From Faecalibacterium prausnitzii (GTDB taxonomy: Bacteria; Bacillota; Clostridia; Oscillospirales; Ruminococcaceae): a stretch of 64,000 bases of DNA. The position numbers were made by a program, and so were the translations under genes. The notes under the pieces are model-generated. The model was not told the DNA's origin. It made no database searches and was given only the letters and a program-made list of their open reading frames with translations. The DNA lies in contig NZ_PRLD01000014.1 of the NCBI RefSeq assembly GCF_003287405.1, positions 1-64,000 on the forward strand, in the 5' to 3' direction. Positions 48,949 to 62,127 of the stretch are shown here, piece by piece. Each line of letters begins with the position of its first letter. The first letter of the stretch is position 1.

Positions 48949-49110
48949 GTAAACTTTTCAGGGCGTATTTTGGGCAGGTTGACGAGGGAGAGCTTTCTGC
49001 GGGTGCGCATCCGGGCAAAACAAAGCCCAATGGACAAATCAACCACCGGTTTTATGGCAGGGTTTAGGACATCCGAACAGACACCGTTTGATATAGAAAT
49101 GAGGTTCACC

Positions 49111-49359
49111 ATGAACAAACTGCTTTCCTGCCGCTTCAATATGGACACCAACCGGGTGGAAGCCCGGTTCGAGGATAGCACCACTCTTGCCATCGACTGC
49201 ATCGCCGTGGAGGACGAGTACGGCAGCACCCCCGCACAGCGGGCAGAGCTGGACTGGCTGCTGTGCAACAGGCCGCTGGAGTACGCACAGCTTGTGCTGG
49301 GAGGAGAGATGGAGCACTATCTCTCGCTGGGATGCGACCACGGCAAGCTGGAAGATTGA
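49111..49359 (+). CDS. Small conserved Clostridia protein (DUF6061-like)
   Basis: An 82-residue soluble protein: SCRFNMDTNRVEARFEDSTT, then IDCIAVEDEYG, AQRAELDWLLCNRPLEYAQLVLGGE. This resembles the short DUF6061-like proteins of Clostridia, from memory, with no known function. The start at 49111 follows GAGGTTCACC. An upstream in-frame extension exists to 48928 but lacks a ribosome site. It lies between the TetR region and a repeat-bearing gap. Confidence 0.7.
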   Translation: MNKLLSCRFNMDTNRVEARFEDSTTLAIDCIAVEDEYGSTPAQRAELDWLLCNRPLEYAQLVLGGEMEHYLSLGCDHGKLED

Positions 49360-49686: not shown

Positions 49687-50043
49687 ACATTTTGCGTTTT
49701 CATTCGATTCAGGTAAATCTATTCGGCTTGTGGTTTTCGCTAAACCCACGGTTTGGCTCTACAACAGGCTGATGCCGAACCAGTCTATTGCTTCAATGCC
49801 ACCGATAGCTGGTCAACGCCGCTATCCTCTAAAAGTATTATACACCGTTGATGTGGCATTGCAAGGAAAAAACGCGATACACGATAATATGCTCAATCGA
49901 AAGTCGATACTTTTGGGGAACGCAATATATCGAAAGCGATACTTTCTTCGTCAATGTCGATACTTTTTACAAAAATATAGCGAGTTCCCGCACTCCACGG
50001 GATATGCTTGCTCGCTAAACATAGTACGCAGGACATATCCAAA
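49687..50043. other. AT-rich gene-free spacer with CGATACTTT repeats
   Basis: No gene is visible. CGATACTTT occurs at about 49903, 49938 and 49960, in two cases inside small inverted repeats such as GAAAG-CGATA-CTTTC. A GCGAG...CTCGC inverted repeat lies near 49979-50016. Confidence 0.4.
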
Positions 50044-50080
50044 CAATATAATCCTAATTATGATAATTCAAATTATATTG
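50044..50080. repeat. Left 37-bp palindrome flanking the ATPase gene
   Basis: Arms CAATATAAT (50044-50052) and ATTATATTG (50072-50080) around AATTATGATAATT. It overlaps the last codons and the TGA stop of the ATPase gene. It matches the right palindrome (51513-51549) at about 30 of 37 positions. Confidence 0.85.
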
Positions 50081-51495
50081 TTCTCATAAACAGTGTCTTC
50101 CTGAATCAAAATCAAGTTCGGATTCTCTGCAGCCATCTCCACCAGTCGATCTGTAAAGCCGCTCTTGGAGAACAGCCCGTACACAATTTCGTAGCCCTTA
50201 AACGCCGTTGTAAGTTCTTTGGACTGCCCCTTTTCCTGCAAAGCAGAGTAGACCGCCACATCCACAGGTTTCGCATGGTACTTGCACTCACCGAGGAACA
50301 GCCGCTTATGCTGATTATCCACCGCAGCAACGTCGATCTCCGTATCGCCCTCATTATCATTTCGCCAGTAAGAGCCAATGCGTGAGGGCGCAAATTCGAT
50401 CTGCCCCTTTCGGCACAGTTCCGCAAAGATATTCCGGCAGATGCTCTCATAAGCGAAAGCCACAAATTTTTGCTTGAAGTCTTTGCCCATCTCGTCCAGC
50501 ACGATCTGTTGGTTGTCCAGTTCCAACTCTCCCTTGAACGGGTACACATAGCGGAACCAGAAGCGGATGAAGTTGTCCGAAACATAGTACAGGCTTTTCC
50601 GGGAACGCTCTGGATTCTTTTCGGTGATGGGAACGTTCTTGATAACAAAACCAAGGTCGATCAGTGTTTTCAGGTACGGCGTAATAGCTGACGTGTCCTG
50701 CTCCATCGTCATACCGATCTTGCTCAGCTTGTGGTTGCCGTCCGAAATCGCTTTTAGCACGGAGAAATAGTTGATAGGCGTCTGCACTTCCTCGTTGAGC
50801 AAGAAATCCGGTTCTTCATACAAAAAGCCATTTTTCGACAGTACCACACGCCGAATCTGCTCCACCAGCGGCTCGTCCGTCTGGAAAAACTCCATATATT
50901 TCGGTACGCCGCCCGTGATGGCATACTGCTCCACAGCCTGCTCAAACGACAGGTTCTGCGCCGCATACACATCCGTAAATTGCAGCGGCATAAGCCGAAT
51001 CTGTGCCGTTCTACGGCCATAGAGCGGACTGTCGTAGGCAAGTGCGTGTTTTTTCATCATGCTGATGAGGGAACCGCAGAGAACCAGCATCACGTTATGG
51101 TCTTTCAGCACTTCATCCCATGCGTTTTGCAAGATGGACGGGAAATCCGGGTTCGTCTTGACCAGATACGGAAATTCATCAATGACAAGCACCTTTTTCT
51201 CGTCCGGGTGGTCATCTGCTACCACTTGGAATAAATCCAGCCAGTCGGTGAATGTGACCTTGCTGAGCATGGGGTTCTTAGTAGTGCGGGAAAGCACTCC
51301 GGCAAACCGCTTCATGCTCTGGGCTTCACTTTCTGTGGTTGCCAAAAAGTAGAACGCGCGTTTATCTTTGATAAACTCTTTGATCAGCGTCGTTTTTCCA
51401 ACACGCCGCCTGCCGTAAATCACCACAAAGCCGCTGCCGTGCTCTAGCTCCGCATTCAGCGTTGCCAGTTCGGATGTTCTGCCAATGAAGTCCAT
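50068..51495 (-). CDS. AAA ATPase with C-terminal DUF234-type nuclease-like domain
   Basis: 475 residues. N-terminal ATPase_2-type P-loop domain: Walker A GRRRVGKTT at 28-36, Walker B VLVIDEFPYL near 103-112, and a sensor-like VLCGSLISMM near 138. A winged helix follows (about 240-300). The C-terminal part (about 345-430) shows EIDVAAVD then LFLGECKYH, i.e. E386/D388 and E403-x-K405, a PD-(D/E)xK-like pattern of DUF234 proteins. Its role is unknown. The ATG at 51495 follows GAGAGGTG. The gene is bracketed by two near-identical palindromes. Confidence 0.88.
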   Translation of the reverse strand: MDFIGRTSELATLNAELEHGSGFVVIYGRRRVGKTTLIKEFIKDKRAFYFLATTESEAQSMKRFAGVLSRTTKNPMLSKVTFTDWLDLFQVVADDHPDEKKVLVIDEFPYLVKTNPDFPSILQNAWDEVLKDHNVMLVLCGSLISMMKKHALAYDSPLYGRRTAQIRLMPLQFTDVYAAQNLSFEQAVEQYAITGGVPKYMEFFQTDEPLVEQIRRVVLSKNGFLYEEPDFLLNEEVQTPINYFSVLKAISDGNHKLSKIGMTMEQDTSAITPYLKTLIDLGFVIKNVPITEKNPERSRKSLYYVSDNFIRFWFRYVYPFKGELELDNQQIVLDEMGKDFKQKFVAFAYESICRNIFAELCRKGQIEFAPSRIGSYWRNDNEGDTEIDVAAVDNQHKRLFLGECKYHAKPVDVAVYSALQEKGQSKELTTAFKGYEIVYGLFSKSGFTDRLVEMAAENPNLILIQEDTVYENNII

Positions 51496-51512
51496 ACCGT
51501 GCACCTCTCGCT

Positions 51513-51549
51513 TAATATAATTTGAATTATGATAATTTCAATTATATTA
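51513..51549. repeat. Right 37-bp palindrome flanking the ATPase gene
   Basis: Arms TAATATAAT (51513-51521) and ATTATATTA (51541-51549) around GAATTATGATAATTT. It lies 18 bases upstream of the ATPase start and must overlap its promoter and ribosome-site region, so it may be an operator. Confidence 0.85.
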
Positions 51550-51645
51550 TAGCTGCTCTGCACAAAACCGTCAATAGGACGAAACGTCGAATTTTCAACA
51601 TCAAATTCATACAATGTAGAAAACTCCGGGCTTTTTCAGTTTAAC

Positions 51646-52137: not shown

Positions 52138-52944
52138 ATGGCATTCAAATCTATAAATCATGATAATGAAAAGATTTTCTATAACAGATTGTGGAAATTG
52201 ATGGAGGAGCGAAACCTTTCAACGGCAAGAGAATTAGCGCAGGCTTTATATGCCGAGGAGATAGTCCCTGTAGACAGTGCATCTGAAGACGAGATATCTA
52301 TAATAGGAAGTATGACGCGCAGAATACAGGAACACTTAAATTTAGAAGGTACAGATAAATTGCAGGGTAGATATGTCAAAGCGTATTGTGATTTTTTTGG
52401 ATGTTCAGCAGATTACCTGTTTGGCTTATCTTCAATTAAAAGTGAAAATCCAGATGTTATTAGATTCTGTGAAGCAACAGGGTTATCTGAAAAATCGGTC
52501 AGAAGGCTAATAGAAGATTTACCGGAAGATATAAAAAGAGATTTAGTTGGGTTTTGGTCTAATGTTTTAGAAAGCAATTTGTTTTATGAAGTACCTTTAG
52601 AATTCCATCAAATGTGCTATGAATTGGGACAGTACAGAATTGCACAGGACCAAATAAAGGCAATCAATATGGCGGCTAAAAAAATGGACAATTCAGATAC
52701 ATTTGTCGATACTTGGAGAGCGATGATGGAGAGTAATTATCTAAAGGAAGCTCAGCCGCATGAAGGGTCCTACCATATGCATCTGAATGAGCTTTTAGTG
52801 AATGTGACAGCGTGTTTGGAAAATTGGGTGGATGAATATGTTCCTACCCATAAAAAAGAGATTCAACAATATTTCTATGGCGACTTAAATAAGAGACTTC
52901 AGGAGAGTTATGATGAATTTTTGAAAGCAACGCGATCCGAATAA
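52138..52944 (+). CDS. Helix-turn-helix protein with unknown C-terminal domain
   Basis: 268 residues. The N-terminal 95 residues look like an atypical Cro/C1-type DNA-binding domain (LWKLMEERNLSTARELAQAL; then YCDFFGCSADYLFGLSS, the usual end of XRE domains). The remainder is helical with ETGLSEKSVRRLIEDLPEDI and no recognised domain; phage and integrative-element regulators often have this two-part form. AT-rich. The ATG follows ACGAGGTGATATA. It probably regulates itself and the divergent small membrane protein. Confidence 0.75.
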   Translation: MAFKSINHDNEKIFYNRLWKLMEERNLSTARELAQALYAEEIVPVDSASEDEISIIGSMTRRIQEHLNLEGTDKLQGRYVKAYCDFFGCSADYLFGLSSIKSENPDVIRFCEATGLSEKSVRRLIEDLPEDIKRDLVGFWSNVLESNLFYEVPLEFHQMCYELGQYRIAQDQIKAINMAAKKMDNSDTFVDTWRAMMESNYLKEAQPHEGSYHMHLNELLVNVTACLENWVDEYVPTHKKEIQQYFYGDLNKRLQESYDEFLKATRSE

Positions 52945-53062: not shown

Positions 53063-53312
53063 TCAACGCCAACGCAATCACAGCGTAATAGAATATTTTT
53101 TGAGACGGTAAAGGGGATTTTATCTGCTTTGCCGTTTTTTCACATCTGGACTCCAACATGCCTTTGTGCTATTCAGCGATTCCATCGCGCAGCCTGCGTC
53201 GGGACGGTGCAGATTTGAAAGGGTTTGGGATTTCCCAACAAGTATTTTGCAACGCAAAATGGTCTTTGTATATACGAAGACACTGCTTGCGGGTCTGCTG
53301 GTCATATACCCT

Positions 53313-54074
53313 TCAGCTCTCACCACCACAAAACGTTTCATATTTTTGACTCCATTCAAACTGTGCATTTTTGTCTAACAGCTTTTTGCGTTGCTGCCAA
53401 TCTGGCATAAGTGTCGACAGTATAGCATAAAAATCCTTCGAGTGGTTTGGGTACAGAAAATGACAAAACTCGTGCAATACTACATATTCAATGCAACTGA
53501 CGGGCATTTCGAGCAAGTGCCGGTTCAATGTAATGATAGCTTTCTGTGGAAGACAAGATCCCCAGCGAGTATCCATCGATCGAATATGGATTCGTGGAAA
53601 TGGCACATCATATTTCCGAAATATCGGATAAAGCTGATCCACCGTCTGCTGAAATATTTCGCGACACATCTTATTCAGATAACGGTCAACAAGACGCTTT
53701 TTTTGTTCCTGATCTTCTGTGTCTTTTACGGTAAGATAGAGATAAACGCCATCGGAACGTATATCGTCTTTTTTTCCTTGCTCTACCCGCAGACGCAGAC
53801 TGCGCCCCAAAACGGAAAAGCTTTCCCCACTGATGTAATGTCGAGGCTGCGGTGCATACTGTTGGAATTCCCGAAAATGCTGCTGTGCCTCTGCAATGTA
53901 ACGGCTGTGTCGTTTCACGAATTGCGTAACAACGCTTTCCGGAACATCTTTCGGAGCAGAAATATAAACAGAGGCATCTGTCCGAATCCGAAGGTTGATA
54001 TTGCGTACATTTTTTCGTTCCAGCTGATAGCAGATACAACCATGCTCCGTCTCAACCGCACAAATCTGTATCAT
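53313..54074 (-). CDS. YgjP-like M48-family metallopeptidase
   Basis: 253 residues. The zinc site HEFCH is at 201-205 with a third ligand His 211 (NHSKDF), preceded by MDTRWGSC (168-174), the hallmarks of the YgjP/DUF45 (WLM/SprT-like) metalloprotease family. No signal peptide. Its ATG overlaps the hsdR stop by 4 bases, so it is the last gene of the restriction operon; the same association is common elsewhere. Its role in restriction is unknown, perhaps turnover of HsdR. Confidence 0.9.
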   Translation of the reverse strand: MIQICAVETEHGCICYQLERKNVRNINLRIRTDASVYISAPKDVPESVVTQFVKRHSRYIAEAQQHFREFQQYAPQPRHYISGESFSVLGRSLRLRVEQGKKDDIRSDGVYLYLTVKDTEDQEQKKRLVDRYLNKMCREIFQQTVDQLYPIFRKYDVPFPRIHIRSMDTRWGSCLPQKAIITLNRHLLEMPVSCIEYVVLHEFCHFLYPNHSKDFYAILSTLMPDWQQRKKLLDKNAQFEWSQKYETFCGGES

Positions 54075-57000
54075 GCAAACCTCCGCAACGCAACTGTTTT
54101 AACATTTTCAATAATCATGTCAATCACATCAAAAGAAAGTACCAGGCCCATTTCTTTTTGGTAGCGGTAAAACAGATCATCAATATCCTGCGAGATTCGA
54201 TCATGGATCGTCAGATTGTGGGTCCAGTCTACCTGGCTATGTTTTTCGATGATTGTCGTGATATCCAGTGCCATCTCGGCGGCAAAATCAGGCTCCACTG
54301 ACAATTTTTCATTGGAGAAAATCGCGGTCAGTACACCATAGAACGCCTGTGCATGGACATTGGCTCGGATACGATCCGGGTATGCGATAGCGCTTTTTCC
54401 CGTGCGGTAATCCTCCAGAATATCCCGCATCTTGGCCAGATATTCTGCCTCCGTTATCGTCCGGGCTTTATACAGCTCAAGCGCTTCCTTGATGCGCTTG
54501 GAAAAATTTTCATAGTATGCTGGGTTCTCCTGATACTTCGTATTGATACTCTTGGCGAGCCGTGTGCGAATCGCATCAGCTTTGGCACGCAGTGAGCCCA
54601 ACTCGTTTAATTCCTTTTCAAACGCATCTCTGTCCAGAATGTCTACCGGCTCGGTGATTCGCTTCAGACCCTCTACTGAAAGGTGTACGTCCAGCAGGTT
54701 TTGCATCAGAGGTTCGTATTCCCGATTGTCGATTGAATCCCCATAACGAGGTTTCACACTGCGCCGTACCGCAGAGAAAAAGCCAAATGCTTTGATATAT
54801 TTTTCCCGCTCTTCCACTGCCAGTGCCTCATAGGTTTTTTCGGAATTCAGAACAAGATTCAAGGAGCGACCAAAGTTACACAGCCGTTTGTAAAACTCTT
54901 CCCGCTTCGAACTATCCGCTAAGAAAACCTCTACCGCCTCTGCATCGGTTCCGGCAAGTGTCAGACCGGGAACAGCCGAAAGCAACTCCATCAGTGCAGA
55001 ATAATCGCTGCGTACCGTTCCAATCGCAGAGAGCACGTCCACCACAACGCCTTTCAGATCATGCCCATCAAAGTTTTCCAGCCCAGCACCACTGTAAAGC
55101 TCCATTGCCTCATCCAATTTTTTGATCAGGCCCCGGTAATCCACGATCATTCCATAGCTTTTTCCCTCGCACAGGCGGTTTGTGCGGGCAATGGCCTGAA
55201 GCAAACCGTGCTCCTTAAGTTCTTTGTCCAAGTAAAGCACTTGGCAGAGCGGCTCATCAAAGCCGGTAAGCCATTTGCTGCACACGATCACAAGATCCAG
55301 TTCTCCGGCATGATACTGTGCCTTGATTGCTTCTTCATAATCATCGGCACTGCCATAGCGCTGCATCATCCGATTCCAGTAGGCAACTACCTTGTCGTCT
55401 GCTCCTTCATCTGCATCATCCACACTTTCGCGCAGATCCGGAGCCGAGATCACGACAGCGCAGTTCAGATCGCCAAATTGCTCAAAGCATTCCAGATACC
55501 GAACGGCATCCCGCTTGTAATTGGTGGCGACCATTCCCTTGAAGCCTGTATTTTTATAGGTTCGGCAAAAGTCCTCGTTGATGTCCAAAGCGATCCGTTT
55601 GATGCGTGCATCCGTAGAGGTCAGTCGTCGGATGCTGCTCCATTTCCGGGCGAGATCATCCCTCTGTGATTCCGTCAGACGTTTTGTTGTTTGCTGAAAC
55701 CATAGGTCGATGTTCTTTTCGTCAACTTTCTGTTCCACAAAGCGGCCTTCATAGATCAGTGGAACAATTGCACCATCGGCCACACCGTCCTGAATCGTAT
55801 ACTTGTGAATCAGTCCGCCAAACTTTTTCAAGGTGTTCTTCTCGCTCTTCATCAAGGGCGTTCCTGTAAAACCGATATAGCAGGCGTTTGGAAAAACCGT
55901 CCGCATTTTACGTGACATTTTGCCGTAATTGGAGCGGTGGCTTTCGTCCACAAGAACAAAGATGTCCCGAGATTTGTTGCAACCGTCCAGCCGTTCGGCA
56001 GTGCTGAATTTGTTGATGATGCTGGTGACGATGTCCACCCGCTCATCCGTAACCAATCCCAGCAGATGCCGCCCGTTGGTAGCACGCGCAGGGCGAAGCC
56101 GCGTGTGCGCGAATGTCGCTGTGATTTGCTTATCCAGCTCTTTTCGGTCGGTGACGATCACTACACGTGGATGGTCTGCCTGCAGCTCCAGCAGCAAATA
56201 TTTCGCCACCATCACCATGGTCAGACTTTTTCCGCTGCCCTGTGTATGCCAGATCACACCGCCGCACCGGTTTCCTTTTTCATCACGCTGTTTGACTGTA
56301 TGCAGAATTTCCTTCACCGCAAAATATTGCTGATATCGGCAGATCTTTTTCACATTGTAGTCAAACAGCACGAAATACTTTGTCAGTTCCAACAAACGGA
56401 CCGGTGTAAACAGAGAAACAATATCTTTATCCTGCACCGTTGGTGTCCGATCCGGGATCAGCTGAGCCATTTTCCGGTTCAGGAAATCTGCATCCTGCTC
56501 TTTCCAGATGCTCCAAAATTTTTTCGGCGTTCCCGTTGTCGCATAGCGCACCTCGTTTTTATTGGTCGCCATTACGATCTGCGCAAACGCAAAAAGCTGG
56601 GGGATATAGTGAGGCTGCTGGTTACGGCAGGTTTGCTCAATGGCCTGTTCCACCGGGATATCCGGAGCCTTGCATTCAATCACCGCAAACGGAATTCCAT
56701 TGACAAACAGCACGATGTCCGGGCGGGCATCATGCTGTCCATCGGCGCTTTCCACCGCAAATTCTTCCGTGACATGGTAAAGGTTCTGCGTCGGGTCCTC
56801 CCAGTCAATGTACTTCAAGTTGAAGTTCAGCAGCCTTCCTTCGCCTACAGTTTCGGGATAGCTTGTGCCCAGCATAAGCGCATCATAGATTTTCTCGCTG
56901 GTGCGCACAAGACCGTCCGTCAGCGGTATTTCCAGATCATCCATGGCGTGCTCAATGTTGACTGCAGAAAATTCATTTTCCACACCGCCGTAGGTATAGC

Positions 57001-57178
57001 GGTTTAGTTTCCGCAGCTGACCGCGCAGCACATCCCGCAACAGCACCCGGTAGCCACTTCCGCGCTGCTGACGGCATTCTTCTGGGGAGAGATATGTATA
57101 CCCCATGGCCTGCAGCAGTTCCAGCGCAGGCTTTTTGCTGATGTTGGCTTCGGAGTAAATGGATTTATCGAGGTTCAT
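54071..57178 (-). CDS. hsdR: Type I restriction enzyme subunit R (HsdR)
   Basis: 1035 residues. The N-terminal nuclease domain has PDIVLFVNGIPFAVIECKAP near residues 156-175 (Asp and ExK). The SF2 motor has Walker A HTQGSGKS near 308, DESHRSNYG near 403, GFTGTPL near 426 and QAIARTNR near 671. A C-terminal helical region binds the methylase complex. It is an ATP-dependent translocase that cleaves unmodified DNA remote from its recognition site. The start at 57178 follows AATAAGGAGGTCACC. Full length, with no frameshift visible. Confidence 0.96.
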   Translation of the reverse strand: MNLDKSIYSEANISKKPALELLQAMGYTYLSPEECRQQRGSGYRVLLRDVLRGQLRKLNRYTYGGVENEFSAVNIEHAMDDLEIPLTDGLVRTSEKIYDALMLGTSYPETVGEGRLLNFNLKYIDWEDPTQNLYHVTEEFAVESADGQHDARPDIVLFVNGIPFAVIECKAPDIPVEQAIEQTCRNQQPHYIPQLFAFAQIVMATNKNEVRYATTGTPKKFWSIWKEQDADFLNRKMAQLIPDRTPTVQDKDIVSLFTPVRLLELTKYFVLFDYNVKKICRYQQYFAVKEILHTVKQRDEKGNRCGGVIWHTQGSGKSLTMVMVAKYLLLELQADHPRVVIVTDRKELDKQITATFAHTRLRPARATNGRHLLGLVTDERVDIVTSIINKFSTAERLDGCNKSRDIFVLVDESHRSNYGKMSRKMRTVFPNACYIGFTGTPLMKSEKNTLKKFGGLIHKYTIQDGVADGAIVPLIYEGRFVEQKVDEKNIDLWFQQTTKRLTESQRDDLARKWSSIRRLTSTDARIKRIALDINEDFCRTYKNTGFKGMVATNYKRDAVRYLECFEQFGDLNCAVVISAPDLRESVDDADEGADDKVVAYWNRMMQRYGSADDYEEAIKAQYHAGELDLVIVCSKWLTGFDEPLCQVLYLDKELKEHGLLQAIARTNRLCEGKSYGMIVDYRGLIKKLDEAMELYSGAGLENFDGHDLKGVVVDVLSAIGTVRSDYSALMELLSAVPGLTLAGTDAEAVEVFLADSSKREEFYKRLCNFGRSLNLVLNSEKTYEALAVEEREKYIKAFGFFSAVRRSVKPRYGDSIDNREYEPLMQNLLDVHLSVEGLKRITEPVDILDRDAFEKELNELGSLRAKADAIRTRLAKSINTKYQENPAYYENFSKRIKEALELYKARTITEAEYLAKMRDILEDYRTGKSAIAYPDRIRANVHAQAFYGVLTAIFSNEKLSVEPDFAAEMALDITTIIEKHSQVDWTHNLTIHDRISQDIDDLFYRYQKEMGLVLSFDVIDMIIENVKTVALRRFA

Positions 57179-57188
57179 GGTGACCTCC

Positions 57189-58322
57189 TTATTTTTTGAC
57201 AACTGTATCAAATGTCATCTTTTCAAGCGAGATATCATCCGATTTCAAAATATGCTGATTTGACGTATTGATTGTAATACTGTTTCCGTTTATTTCAGCT
57301 TCTTCAAGAATATAAAAATTTTCATTACAAAAAATTACGACTTCTGTTTTTTTCGGAGTGACAAGGCATTCAAATATTCGTTTATCTTTTGCCATTTCAC
57401 GCCCACTTAATGCGGCAGCTATAACAAGAGCAACAATTATATAGATATATATTAAGAAAAAGCGTTTCCATGATGTTATTGAGAACTCGAATCTTTCACT
57501 TTTGAAAATTTTTTCTTCATCTTCTTTTATCTCATCCACAAAAGAGAGTGTGTTATTATTGTTTTCAATGGCTTTATCCAGTTTCGTCTCGACAGCTTTT
57601 TTCCCAGAGACTTTTAACTGTGAAACGGACCCCAATAATGCCATTGCTATGAATTCTATCATATATAAGGCACTTAAAATAGTAACCATTACGAAGTTTA
57701 CAATATCAGTTAATGCAACTAAAACGATCCAAAATAGAATGGCTACTAGCCCCCATACGACCAGTATTTCAAATGCTCCTTTGCAAATTTCTTTCCAAAA
57801 TAATATTTTTTCAAGTTTTCGTGCTTTCTGAATTAACTCTTTCTGGAGATAGATAGACATTCTTCGTGCATCAAGTCTAGCCAGATGGACTCTATCATCC
57901 GCAGATGCCCTTTTATCGTTCCAAAACTCGGCGTACATACTTTTTAATTCTTTATCTTCTTTGTTTATTCTATGACTGAGTATCCGAAATACTTGATTAC
58001 AACATCTGCCCGTTGTAGTATTATGGATGAATTTTGAAACCGTATTTTTTACGACGAACATCGATATTGTTCCGCATAGCAAAAAAATAAAAGATATCGC
58101 AAAAATAGATCCAAGATTCGGTACATTATATGCCGCATATAAGGTATCAATATTCCAGTATCTTAGGAAAGTGACTGTCGCTAATCTGCACGAAAAGCTC
58201 ATAATTGCCGATGTCAGCGTGACGATCGCCGACACAACAGCAATTATCAATGACGGATTTTTTCTCAAATAATTCCATGCTTTCTTTCCGAAATCCACGT
58301 TATCCGTCTTGTCTTTGCTCAT
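57189..58322 (-). CDS. Unknown multi-pass membrane protein inside the type I RM operon
   Basis: 377 residues. Membrane helices at about 28-46, 70-93, 186-210, 215-240 and 296-316, with a charged cytoplasmic middle (HRINKEDKELK... ARKLEKILFW) and a long loop (GKKAVETKLDKAIENNNN). The final 55 residues (ECLVTPKKTEVVIFCNENFY) are soluble and beta-rich. No family is recognised. The start overlaps the hsdS 3' end by 23 bases, and the stop lies 10 bases before hsdR, so it is firmly embedded in the operon. It is very AT-rich. It may be a membrane effector or an inserted accessory gene. Confidence 0.8.
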   Translation of the reverse strand: MSKDKTDNVDFGKKAWNYLRKNPSLIIAVVSAIVTLTSAIMSFSCRLATVTFLRYWNIDTLYAAYNVPNLGSIFAISFIFLLCGTISMFVVKNTVSKFIHNTTTGRCCNQVFRILSHRINKEDKELKSMYAEFWNDKRASADDRVHLARLDARRMSIYLQKELIQKARKLEKILFWKEICKGAFEILVVWGLVAILFWIVLVALTDIVNFVMVTILSALYMIEFIAMALLGSVSQLKVSGKKAVETKLDKAIENNNNTLSFVDEIKEDEEKIFKSERFEFSITSWKRFFLIYIYIIVALVIAAALSGREMAKDKRIFECLVTPKKTEVVIFCNENFYILEEAEINGNSITINTSNQHILKSDDISLEKMTFDTVVKK

Positions 58323-59514
58323 CCTCTACTCTCGCTTTCCCCATCAGTAGCAATTGCATCAGTGCTTTTTTCTTCTGCTTTTCGGCCTCAATAGATTTTT
58401 GTAGCAGGTCAATTTCATGGTCAGCAACCCTTAAAATTTTAGCAATTTCTTTCTGCTCTTCGGTTTCTGGCATTGTAATTTTGATTCTGAAGAAATCATC
58501 AACAGCAATATTTAACATTCCGTGATTTCTTGCTCCCTCTTGAACAATTGATTGAATTTCTCGATTTATAATACTCGTCTCAAAATATTGTTCCAGAAAG
58601 TCAAGGGACGCCAATTTCTTGTTTACTGCAAAGCAAATATAAAGGGGCGAAACAACGCCTTGGACATATCTCTTCAAGCGTTTTATTGTGCCGTACGGAT
58701 AGCCTTTCGAGTAACTTCTATTGTATGCGAATTCGTCTTTTGAAAGCAAGTAGTAGTTGCTTTTATCGTCACTTGCAATTACTTTGTCAAAAAATTCCGT
58801 CTGATTTATCAATCCATACTGCGCCGATATTGTAAGAACGTTGTTATTTCCAACCGTATTTTTGGTTTCATTACGGCATGAAATTTCATTCAAGTGAATA
58901 GTTTTCCACTCACCCCCAAATCCCGGCAGCCGCTTTTTCCCGGTCAGCAACTGCTGCATCAGATATTTTTTCTGCTGCTGTTTTTGAGCAAGGAGCTTTT
59001 CTTTCAGCTCAATCACTTTGTCCTGTGTGGAAAGGATGGCAGCAATCTTTTGCTGCTCAGAAAGGGGAGGCAATGTAATTTTACTTTTCAGAAAACGTTC
59101 CTGCCCTAAGGTTCGGTTCCGTCCAGCCCCACCTGGAGATGCCGCTTCCAGAATATCTGTTCCTCTCTTAGTTAGAAAATAATAAATCAAGTAATCAATA
59201 TCTACCAAATCATTCTTCGGGCGATACATTGGAAAGCGGTGGGAACCAATCATACCAATTTCATTTTCAGTCGTTTTTGTGATTGCCTGTTCCCATGCAA
59301 ATACCACGTTAAGAATAAAGCAATTGGGCTGAATCCAGAAAACCTGCTTGTTTCCAAGAGCCTTTCCCAAAACTGGTTCTTTATAAAATAAGCCCTTTCC
59401 GTGAGAGCGAATACCAATTTGGACATATTTTTTGTTTGATTCAACATTAACAGGGACTTCAACGCGTTCGAGAATATCACGGAATAAATAAACATTCCAA
59501 TTTTTTGGTTCCAT
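58300..59514 (-). CDS. hsdS: Type I restriction specificity subunit S (HsdS), full-size
   Basis: 404 residues from the ATG at 59514 (MEPKNWNVYLF). Two target-recognition domains (about 1-150 and 200-345) each end in a conserved helical region: LPPLSEQQKIAAILS then LKEKLLAQKQQQKKYLMQQL (about 152-190), and TMPETEEQKEIAKIL then EAEKQKKKALMQL (about 350-390). It gives the bipartite DNA target. The ribosome site GAGGAAA is weak and distant. It overlaps the membrane-protein gene. Confidence 0.93.
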   Translation of the reverse strand: MEPKNWNVYLFRDILERVEVPVNVESNKKYVQIGIRSHGKGLFYKEPVLGKALGNKQVFWIQPNCFILNVVFAWEQAITKTTENEIGMIGSHRFPMYRPKNDLVDIDYLIYYFLTKRGTDILEAASPGGAGRNRTLGQERFLKSKITLPPLSEQQKIAAILSTQDKVIELKEKLLAQKQQQKKYLMQQLLTGKKRLPGFGGEWKTIHLNEISCRNETKNTVGNNNVLTISAQYGLINQTEFFDKVIASDDKSNYYLLSKDEFAYNRSYSKGYPYGTIKRLKRYVQGVVSPLYICFAVNKKLASLDFLEQYFETSIINREIQSIVQEGARNHGMLNIAVDDFFRIKITMPETEEQKEIAKILRVADHEIDLLQKSIEAEKQKKKALMQLLLMGKARVEDEQRQDG

Positions 59515-59522
59515 AATCACGA

Positions 59523-60416
59523 TTATTTTCCTCGGATATAAGATAAGTCCATTCCATATTTCTGAAGCTTCTTCTCCATATTGCAAAGTTCATTTTCTGC
59601 TCTTTTCCAATACGGAAGACATATTTTTTCATAAAACCCATCTAGCTTTTCTACGCAAATCGAATGGTATAAGGCTTTACCTGCTTTTGTAAAGATTGCT
59701 CCGCCAACAGCAATTCGCTTTGTTTCAGATAAAGGGTAGATTTCATCAAAATATTGAACTGTAGTTTCACCTGTTTCACTTGCTAAAAAATATGAATTGG
59801 AATTTGTATTAATAAGTCCAAGTGATGTTAAGTCGATTAACGTATCAAGTGCAAGGCCCCACTGCGCATATTTATCAATATTGACAGTGTCAATGATTGG
59901 CGATGCTGATTTGCCCATCCGAATAGCCATTCTGCAAATTAAAGAAAAGTTTTCTGCATCCTCTTTGTCCATCCGCGGAAGAATTTCCAACAAGGCTCTT
60001 GGTACACATCCTGGCTCATTGCACTCATTCGCTAAAATCTTGCCCCAAATAAGTTGAAACTCTTCGGAAGACACAAGCCGAGCTTTATCCATGAACTGTG
60101 CCAACCAGTCAGCATCAATATTTTCTGGCTTTGCATCACTTTTCACAGATTGTATGGCAATGGATACAATGTTTTCTTGGTTGCAGTACTCGCGAATAAT
60201 CTTTTTGGCATTACTGATTCGAGCTGCTTTAATTAGTGGATCAATGTTACTGTTTTGGATTTCAGCAATATAGGTATTTATTGCTACGCGATTTGGCGTA
60301 TCATGGTTTGCATACCAACCCACAGCGTGCGACAATTTATCCAACAATGCTGTAATAACTCCGCCTAATGCAGTGGCAGCTTCACCGGTTCCTAAAAGAT
60401 CTGTTAATGTTCCCAT
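59523..60416 (-). CDS. DUF2806-like protein in the RM operon
   Basis: 297 residues from the ATG at 60416, which follows AGGAGGAAGGAAAA; an earlier in-frame ATG at 60470 also has a possible site. It has a hydrophobic N-terminal helix (ALGGVITALLDKL), then text typical of DUF2806 proteins: FMDKARLVSSEEFQLIWGKI near residues 109-128, then ALLEILPRMDKEDAENF. A C-terminal charged helix follows. DUF2806 has no established function. It lies between hsdM and hsdS and is probably cytoplasmic. Confidence 0.7.
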   Translation of the reverse strand: MGTLTDLLGTGEAATALGGVITALLDKLSHAVGWYANHDTPNRVAINTYIAEIQNSNIDPLIKAARISNAKKIIREYCNQENIVSIAIQSVKSDAKPENIDADWLAQFMDKARLVSSEEFQLIWGKILANECNEPGCVPRALLEILPRMDKEDAENFSLICRMAIRMGKSASPIIDTVNIDKYAQWGLALDTLIDLTSLGLINTNSNSYFLASETGETTVQYFDEIYPLSETKRIAVGGAIFTKAGKALYHSICVEKLDGFYEKICLPYWKRAENELCNMEKKLQKYGMDLSYIRGK

Positions 60417-60579
60417 TTTTCCTTCCTCCTGCGATTTACTTCTTGCAGTCGATAGGCTTTCATCGTCCATGCTCTTGCTTTCCTTTCATAAGAAAGTATA
60501 TCATACGCCGATGTACAATTTAAACTACAATATTTCGGAATTTTTGCATCATAAACTGTGCATTGCCTCGTATAAAGCT

Positions 60580-62127
60580 TTACAACCCCAGCTCATCCAA
60601 ATACTTTTTCATCTGCTCCTGTACCTGCGCCAGTTCAGCTTCGATATCCGCAATATTTTTCTTCACCGCCTGAATATCTACCGGGTCTTCCTCTTCAAAA
60701 GTATCCACATAGCGGGGAATGTTCAGATTGTAGTCGTTCTCCCGGATTTCATCCAGCGTCGCACGATAGCTGTACTTCGGCGTGGTTTCACGCTTTTTAT
60801 AGGCATCCACAATTTTCTGGATGTCCGTGTCTCGCAGAAGGTTCTGGTTCTTGCCTTTCTCGAAGTTGCCCTCTGCGGAAGCGTCGATGAACAGAACATT
60901 ATCGACACCTCGGCTAATGCGATCCTTGCGGAACACCAGAATGCAGGCCGGAATGCCCGTGCCGTAAAACAGGTTGGCAGGCAGACCGATCACAGCATCC
61001 AGAAGGTTGTGTTCAACAATCTGGCGGCGAATTTTGCCCTCGCTCGCACCGCGGAACAGTACACCGTGGGGCAGCACGACAGCCATTCGGCCTTGACTGC
61101 GGTCAAGGCTGTTGAGCATATGCAGAACAAAAGCATAATCACCCTTGGAAGATGGTGGAACGCCCCAATCAAAGCGCCCCCATGGGTCCAGAGAAGCGTT
61201 CATTTTTTCCGGCTTTTTTCCCTTGGCATCCAAAACCGCATTGGAAAGGAAGCCGCTGTCCCATTTGTCCAAACTGAATGGCGGGTTTGCCACAATGCAC
61301 TGGAACAACATCAGATTATCGTTTTCGATATTCTGCGGGTTGCTCAGGGTGTCGCCCTGCCAGATGCGGGCATCGTCTACCTCGTGCAGGAACATATTCA
61401 TCTTGCACAGAGCCCATGTCTGTGCGTTTAATTCCTGACCGTAAACTGCCACTTTTCCGTCCGGCACGCGCTTGCATGCCTTGAGCAGGAGACCACCGCT
61501 GCCGCAGGTCGGGTCATAGATACGGTCATTTTCCTGCGGATCTACCAATGCCGCTGCCAGTTCGGAGACCTTGCTCGGCGTAAAGAACTCTCCGCCCTTC
61601 TTGCCGGCGTCCGAAGCAAAGTTGCCGATCATATATTCGTAGGCATCACCGATAATGTCAGAACCGTCCAGCGCAGAAGAACGCAGGTCAAGTCCGTGGA
61701 AGTCTTCCAGCAGGTTGCAGAGGGTCGCATTTTTTGCCTTGATGTCTGTACCAAAGTCCACATTGGAGTTGAAATCGATGGAGCGAAACACGTTCCGAAG
61801 CTTGCTGCTGTTATGATCTTCAATAGAAGCCAGTGCCGTGTTGATCTTCAGCCCGATTTCGGAATCATGGCGATTTTTATAAAGGTACCCAAACGTAGAT
61901 GTATCATCCAGCTTAAAACGCTCACGGCTCATGGCACGCTCGACACGGCGTTCATCACCGTCGTATTGCTCCCGGTATTGCTCTCGTTTTTCCTCCGAAA
62001 CGTCGCTCAGATATTTTACGAACAGCATGGAAAGAATGTAGTCCTTATAACGGGAACTGTCAATTTTACCGCGAAAGCTGTCGCAGGCGTTCCAAAGAAC
62101 GCGTTCGATTTCCGATTTTGTCGTCAT
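60580..62127 (-). CDS. hsdM: Type I restriction-modification DNA adenine methyltransferase (HsdM)
   Basis: 515 residues. The N-terminal HsdM helical domain (1-150) precedes SAM motif I YDPTCGSGGLL at 204-214 (with FFTPSKVSELAAALV at 181-195), and catalytic motif IV ANPPF at 280-284, giving N6-adenine methylation. A C-terminal helix (IADIEAELAQVQEQM) contacts HsdS. Full length. It lies 5 bases downstream of the half-size S gene. Confidence 0.96.
   Translation of the reverse strand: MTTKSEIERVLWNACDSFRGKIDSSRYKDYILSMLFVKYLSDVSEEKREQYREQYDGDERRVERAMSRERFKLDDTSTFGYLYKNRHDSEIGLKINTALASIEDHNSSKLRNVFRSIDFNSNVDFGTDIKAKNATLCNLLEDFHGLDLRSSALDGSDIIGDAYEYMIGNFASDAGKKGGEFFTPSKVSELAAALVDPQENDRIYDPTCGSGGLLLKACKRVPDGKVAVYGQELNAQTWALCKMNMFLHEVDDARIWQGDTLSNPQNIENDNLMLFQCIVANPPFSLDKWDSGFLSNAVLDAKGKKPEKMNASLDPWGRFDWGVPPSSKGDYAFVLHMLNSLDRSQGRMAVVLPHGVLFRGASEGKIRRQIVEHNLLDAVIGLPANLFYGTGIPACILVFRKDRISRGVDNVLFIDASAEGNFEKGKNQNLLRDTDIQKIVDAYKKRETTPKYSYRATLDEIRENDYNLNIPRYVDTFEEEDPVDIQAVKKNIADIEAELAQVQEQMKKYLDELGL

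Follow-up and report, generated by a model that had tools for sequence, protein, structure and literature searches.

The ATPase_2-DUF234 gene of the Faecalibacterium prausnitzii contig NZ_PRLD01000014.1 was found to carry a conserved, operator-like palindrome on its own promoter, as would befit autoregulation. By the window, the whole stretch of 64,000 nucleotides that was analysed is meant; the features under study are collected in Table 1. The best explanation, which we regard as probable, is that the palindrome is the gene's own operator, to which an oligomer of the encoded protein would bind and which it would repress until phage relieves the repression. Position on the promoter, a 15-bp register, conservation linked to the gene and co-variation with the protein subclade were each read from sequence, and together they suggest that the gene travels with its own control switch. 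The domains of the protein were already known, and the operator is new as far as the literature was searched: no report on the regulation or an operator of ATPase_2-DUF234 genes was found in openly licensed papers, which were mostly judged from listings. The term DUF234 drew mainly papers on type VI secretion, which presumably concern DUF2345.

Table 1. Coordinates of the ATPase_2-DUF234 gene, its palindromes and promoter, and the neighbouring restriction genes (window positions)
Feature	Position	Strand	Remark
Left (3') palindrome	50042..50082	.	20-bp arms; spans the stop codon
ATPase_2-DUF234 gene, PADLOC PDC-S27 candidate	50068..51495	minus	475 aa from ATG 51495
C-terminal PD-(D/E)xK nuclease-like domain, DUF234 and beyond	50071..50580	minus	predicted
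Winged-helix-like region	50635..50778	minus	~residues 240-287 from ATG; secondary structure of the model
Right (5') palindrome, putative operator	51513..51549	.	18-bp arms
-10 box TATAAT	51546..51551	minus	17 bp from the -35 box
-35 box TTGACG	51569..51574	minus	ATPase_2-DUF234 gene promoter
hsdR, type I restriction-modification	54071-57211	minus	same island
hsdS, type I restriction-modification	58300-59586	minus	same island
hsdM, type I restriction-modification	60580-62127	minus	same island; restriction genes span 54071..62127

Both palindromes were scored against shuffled sequence. The arms of the right (5') palindrome were complementary at 16/18 positions (0/5000 shuffles as good), and under a stricter score it was beaten by 0/2000 shuffles. 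It was composed of three 9-bp units, 15 bp apart (51512-51520, 51527-51535 and 51542-51550), with TTATGATAA as the central unit and looser outer units, and it overlapped the -10 box of the TTGACG-N17-TATAAT promoter, beginning on that box. The left (3') palindrome, in which the stop codon TGA is contained (50068-50070), carried the same triad at the same 15-bp spacing (50043-50051, 50058-50066 and 50073-50081; centre TTATGATAA). Its arms were complementary at 17/20 positions (0/5000 shuffles as good); under the stricter score, which punishes its three adjacent mismatches, 442/2000 shuffles were as good, so that by this score the left palindrome alone is not unusual. Left and right palindrome were identical at 30/35 aligned positions (86%) and had a G+C content of 15% and 8%, respectively, vs 56.6% for the window. 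The original prediction, which had been made from the letters of the stretch, had described two near-identical palindromes, AT-rich within GC-rich DNA, the left one across the stop codon and the right one at the promoter; arm matching, base composition and coordinates confirmed that both are real and lie where it had put them. Within the 3.03-Mb genome, a degenerate palindrome pattern (at most 3 mismatches) matched nothing but the left and right sites (reversed control: 0). A similar pattern was found in 4/31 genomes of the genus, twice each in the own genome (G000), G013 and G030, which all carry the gene, and a single time in G015, which lacks it. Of the two possible starts of the gene, ATG 51495 is likelier than GTG 51504: it is at the ATG that close homologues start, with ...FIGR.

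For the upstream comparison, homologue loci were taken as the best matches, up to 30 in each search, and the counts given are not independent events, since homologues share ancestry. Gene starts were set by script; partial matches (L007, L016), a locus at the same place as L002 (L008) and stretches of less than 80 bp were not counted, and the dropping of near-identical upstream regions reduced the set from 98 to 86. A pair of TTATNATAA motifs (at most 2 mismatches, exactly 15 bp apart, within 120 bp upstream) was present, among the matches listed, in 16/16 homologues of at least 60% identity and in 18/24 homologues at 40-60% identity, where 0.1 was expected from shuffles in either group; after removal of near-identical upstream regions, the pair was retained in 11/11 and 16/21, respectively. 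Below 40% identity the TTATNATAA motif was found in 1/58 homologues, yet many of these had other palindromes or repeats. The pair started precisely 16 bp downstream of the first -10 base in 13/16 close homologues; two others had it in the same register, at an offset of 1, and L014 had no clear promoter. Hosts of the pair included Clostridia and an Eggerthellaceae MAG (L014; possibly a binning error). Of five bacterial plasmid matches, one from a Fusobacteria bacterium and two Cetobacterium records carried the exact pair, Vescimonas had it with 2 mismatches and Fusobacterium vincentii missed it with 3.

On the protein tree, the TTATNATAA-type operator was distributed with 8 changes vs 22.5 after shuffling (0/500 as low), a figure to which near-copies contribute. 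The genome G013 contained both this gene and a 34% relative, each with a different palindrome. Because of these two genes, and because the palindrome is absent elsewhere in the own genome and was met in only 4 of the 31 genus genomes, the operator site appears to follow the gene, not the host. The 'self-controlling' part of the original prediction is thus one that the sequence comparison favours: the promoter palindrome is conserved across phyla together with the gene, its register relative to the -10 box is constant, and it varies with the protein subclade. When palindromes were scored without regard to the motif, 67/99 homologues among the matches listed had one upstream at a nominal 5% level vs 20/113 control genes, one of the 20 control palindromes being an ATPase operator seen from a divergent frame. 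As control genes exceed the nominal 5%, this test alone is loose, and the palindrome score is a weaker family test than the spacing.

Spacing was assessed in a motif-free manner, by counting direct repeats with at least 9/10 matches at each spacing from 8 to 30 bp. Among the matches listed, repeats at 15 bp were present in 35/86 non-redundant upstream regions and repeats at 30 bp in 7/86, every other spacing giving 3 or fewer. As controls at 15 bp, other genes of these loci gave 5/187 (Fisher p 1.7e-15 against the 35/86), coding starts 0/86 and downstream regions 4/83, the last being a slight excess; the other-gene controls peaked at a spacing of 13 bp (6/187). The remaining 51/86 homologues fell below the strict repeat threshold, and some had neither palindrome nor repeat. 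The test was devised after the 15-bp distance had been seen in the close homologues and, by eye, in one distant group; because the idea came from there, the fairer tests are the archaea, the DUF4143 genes and the low-identity homologues outside that distant group.

Homologues of less than 40% identity, taken alone, had 15-bp repeats in 20/54 of the matches listed vs 0.3 expected, and their repeat sequences differed (e.g. AAATCACGATT). Haloarchaeal plasmid homologues (15 taken from the 25 archaeal records within the best 30 of 161) had 15-bp repeats in 13/15 at a looser threshold (at least 7/8 matches within 80 bp), with every other spacing at 1 or fewer, and 11/15 had AAGTCATTAT.G...TAATCATTA as a common motif immediately ahead of the ATG. 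In the look-alike ATPase-nuclease family DUF4143, the 15-bp register was seen in 0/28 of the matches listed (best 30 loci, 29 with enough upstream DNA, 28 non-redundant; the start was set to the first ATG of the frame). The register accordingly belongs to the gene family in Bacteria and Archaea, while the repeat sequence differs by subclade, and it may serve as a sequence test to separate ATPase_2-DUF234 genes from DUF4143 genes, which we take to belong to PDC-S01. As a separate observation, DUF4143 genes had upstream palindromes at p of at most 0.05 in 11/28 of the matches listed, and those of L269, L275, L277, L282 and L284 had long upstream palindromes of their own (e.g. GGCTAAAATACGATTGCATCGTATTTTAGCC) without the 15-bp register.

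The encoded protein matched the Pfam profiles ATPase_2 (PF01637; 1e-23, 84.8 bits vs a cut-off of 33.2) and DUF234 (PF03008; 5e-21, 75.4 bits vs a cut-off of 22.5), both above the curated cut-off and in this order, by which it is a member of the family. It also matched the PADLOC profile PDC-S27 (7.7e-61, residues 5-425), which makes the gene a candidate for phage defence, and weakly PDC-S01 (4e-14). Two alignments were prepared, A1 from the window and 71 of 90 listed references and A2 from 59 of the 72; L001 (for which the window stands), L008, L079, L152, L159, L170 and L178 were left out of the list, and L080, L133 and L148 were skipped for an in-frame stop. Walker A and Walker B were intact (G33, K34, T35 and D106 in 72/72, E107 in 71/72), and the catalytic residues of a PD-(D/E)xK nuclease were found at D388 (72/72), E403 (68/72) and K405 (71/72); E386 was present in 61/72.

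An AlphaFold2 model of the protein (mean pLDDT 93.2) was compared with solved structures. Residues 1-318 are predicted to share the fold of the archaeal ATPases PABY2304 (PDB 2qen; Z 22.6, rmsd 2.8, 296 aligned) and SSO1545 (PDB 2fna; Z 20.6, rmsd 3.2, 290 aligned), the aligned span reaching residue 315-318; the solved chains of these two have ~350 residues and no match over the C-terminal nuclease-like domain present here. Weaker matches of the model were obtained with NLR, ORC/Cdc6 and TnsC structures, some of them solved with DNA, and a sequence search of solved structures gave weak TnsC matches only (E 0.015 and 0.024). The modelled C-terminal domain matched 2vld (Z 10.2, rmsd 3.3, 106 aligned), 1y88 (Z 9.9), EndoMS 5gke (Z 9.3), PaqCI (Z 9.2) and MspJI (Z 8.5), with a best Foldseek E of 7e-4. 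Profiles, conserved residues and fold matches hence agree with the P-loop ATPase and PD-(D/E)xK C-terminus that had been proposed originally. The protein is best described as a probable ATPase of the ORC/STAND type that also has a winged helix and, as predicted, a PD-(D/E)xK nuclease domain, and as a defence candidate, in which the winged-helix-like region may be the DNA reader.

The PDC-S27 candidate has the same domains as the protein studied here, ATPase and PD-(D/E)XK, and the available part of its source mentions no operator, regulation or infection assay, in contrast to the operator-like site found here (PMC12988326). It is described as particularly frequent in Archaea, with 3,503 detected in that domain and 4,562 in Bacteria, PDC-S01 is given as an ATPase fused to a PD-(D/E)-X-K member, and for most such defence candidates validation is pending (PMC12988326).

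The proposed mechanism would run as follows. The right palindrome would be the gene's own operator, with three 9-bp sites every 15 bp, which starts on the -10 box and would cover the likely transcription start. The protein would bind these sites side by side as an oligomer, and the bound oligomer would block its own promoter, whereby a dangerous nuclease would be kept at a low level; phage attack might then change the nucleotide or bound state, so that the promoter is released. We infer the protein itself as the binder, repression by its binding and relief on infection. An operator that travels with its gene would predict the DNA bound by the protein, the geometry of the oligomer and a reporter for the trigger. 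Copies of the operator at the 3' end of the gene, a solo copy in G015 and a copy beside a gene remnant in L009 lie beyond simple autorepression. A joint reading that takes in these copies as well is tentative: an ORC/STAND-like family of defence ATPase-nucleases in Bacteria and Archaea would carry a portable self-operator with a 15-bp register, bound by an ordered oligomer; the protein would set the spacing of the subunits, and each lineage would have re-invented the base sequence that is read. The promoter-bound oligomer would be a resting immune sensor, released or redirected to a nuclease state on infection, and stray copies would arise from protein-guided breakage and joining of DNA.

That a regulator of the host or the island, and not the ATPase protein, binds the operator is unlikely, although such an arrangement has been described. 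RptR, a separate repressor with repeated sites, controls another type I restriction-modification island, and, as far as the available part of the source goes, it resembles the present case in acting at a defence-island promoter on three direct repeats with a short palindromic core (PMC12255303). RptR is, however, a separate small homodimeric regulator that binds TAGCTA, whereas here the ATPase-nuclease is the proposed regulator (PMC12255303). The island in the window also contains an HTH-like gene (52138-52944) between the ATPase and restriction genes, with an HTH_26 match below the cut-off, which is a possible regulator of the island. Against an external regulator stand the operator type that accompanies the gene through Clostridia, the Eggerthellaceae MAG and Fusobacteria, and takes another sequence in haloarchaea, the different operators of the two such genes in G013, and the confinement of the palindrome to this gene within its own genome. 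For an ATPase of this kind at a promoter, IniR offers a partial likeness: it is reported as a promoter binder, and its ATPase domain was predicted to be similar to SSO1545, but it is an 818-aa activator with a separate C-terminal DNA-binding domain, and a nuclease is not among the three domains named in the available part of the source (PMC5760070).

A type I restriction-modification island ends with the gene; this island was common to G013 and G030 at 97% over 7 kb (window 50012 to ~57.2 kb); homology to G013 extended, with gaps, to ~66.8 kb of the contig. Among the 31 genomes of the genus (own included), the gene was found at 98% in G013 and G030, and a 34% relative in G003, G013 and G014. 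A dispersed repeat of ~250 bp, matched dozens of times within the genus, was located at window 49108-49359 and at G000:C10:66494-66847, and because its copies lie on both sides of the island, the island may move by recombination between them. Another dispersed repeat, of ~105 bp (window 53186-53290), occurred in many places in the genus, with several copies per genome in some. ARAGORN detected no tRNA as integration site in the five loci checked.

The original prediction had further suggested a mobile unit whose protein recognises its own ends. A minimal mobile or homing unit, with the two palindromes as the ends at which the protein would cut or recombine the DNA, we consider very unlikely. 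For it speak the two near-identical palindromes that lie ~1.47 kb apart in three genomes (own, G013 and G030; 1469-1470 bp from the 5' to the 3' one), the nuclease fold of the predicted C-terminal domain, and the further copies in L009 and G015 that are described below; but among 66 loci with a clear upstream palindrome, a set to which the two 98% copies from G013 and G030 do not belong, only the window's copy carried another at the gene end, and the 3'-end palindrome was confined to the three Faecalibacterium copies among the loci examined. L009 had a further operator copy, TTATCATAATTCAATTTATCATAA, not at the gene end but 928 bp beyond the stop of the ATPase, where it lies at the 3' end of an ORF that holds a DUF234 remnant. 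This ORF (L009:1915-2817) has by eye a metallophosphoesterase-like start, without a Pfam match, followed by the DUF234 remnant (8.2e-19), with the operator copy near its end.

The only solo palindrome found in the genus was that of G015, which is without the gene. It follows the stop of an SLFN_AlbA_2/HATPase_c_4 gene by 31 bp and precedes by 8 bp a hairpin flank that also occurs, beyond the 3' palindrome, in G030 (391 bp, 88%) and G013 (167 bp, 91%). Order and orientation are the same in these two, but the flank starts 306 bp (G030) and 283 bp (G013) from the 3' palindrome, in place of the 8 bp of the solo site, and the other side of the solo palindrome had nothing in common with G013 or G030. 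The same flank was present in G003 without a palindrome, after what by eye is the end of a histidine-kinase gene, its match to G030 starting 136 bp past the 3' palindrome of G030. The flank and palindrome searches of the 31 genus genomes (one per species) thus gave no clean empty site, the G015 flank being matched on a single side and at a different distance. The own genome held one match of the gene and no second copy, the gene is shared as part of a large island, not alone, and the palindrome site is locked to the promoter. Of the marks of a mobile element, neither several copies in the own genome nor, among the loci examined, conservation of both ends in relatives was found, and this part of the original prediction is largely unsupported. 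It had looked to palindromes around homologues, to further copies of gene plus palindromes and to empty sites in related strains: the first are there, on the promoter side; the gene is single in its own genome; and the third came down to the solo G015 palindrome with its one-sided flank.

Returning to the self-operator, the left palindrome is a second operator copy without a strong promoter, present at the gene end only in the Faecalibacterium lineage. A promoter scan of this 3' copy gave two weak matches vs 0.8 expected in shuffles, and a weak promoter-like match, AAGACA-N16-TATAAT, adjoined the left palindrome. The 3' copy may add cooperative binding, or be a recombination leftover, or be the remnant of a lost second gene. 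Homology of the own genome to G013 and G030 faded ~30 bp beyond the 3' copy. From this position and those in G015 and L009, stray operator copies tend to adjoin homology breaks, a lead from few cases.

A role of the palindromes as RNA hairpins, whether attenuator, terminator or mRNA end, is highly improbable: the window copies and the solo copy give strong RNA folds (z -5.0, -5.1 and -4.4, respectively) and the outer arms of the 3' copies (G000, G013/G030) and the solo copy vary in a paired way (AACA/TGTT, AATA/TATT, GTTA/TAAC), but folds are weak for the 3' copies in G013 and G030 (z -2.1 and -1.2, respectively), about a quarter of the 5' copy would not be transcribed since it starts on the -10 box, tandem 15-bp repeats stand in many relatives in place of one long palindrome, and a scan of the 3' copy gave no terminator-like site. 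A terminator was rejected separately: palindromes at p of at most 0.05 were located downstream of 36/98 homologues, with a mean G+C content of 46%, unlike the AT-rich 3' copy.

A regulon elsewhere was likewise considered and rejected. The pattern TTATNATAA-N6-TTATNATAA, searched without mismatches, gave 58 sites in 391 genomes of the class vs 62 for the reversed pattern, so that in AT-rich DNA a pattern as short as this does not rise above chance; of the 58 sites, 30 were examined, and 4 of these were at ATPase homologues. In 18 viral stretches with a looser palindrome pattern, no ATPase homologue was found. At L240:1497-1528 (G813), a palindrome with the exact TTATNATAA pair was seen upstream of an apparent other gene, in a locus without an ATPase homologue. 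Finally, window 49880-49970 contained repeated GTCGATACTTTT-like motifs, which by eye resemble the KVSTS-coding repeats of the SLFN_AlbA_2 gene of L103 (5754-7334) and are possibly the tail of a lost gene.
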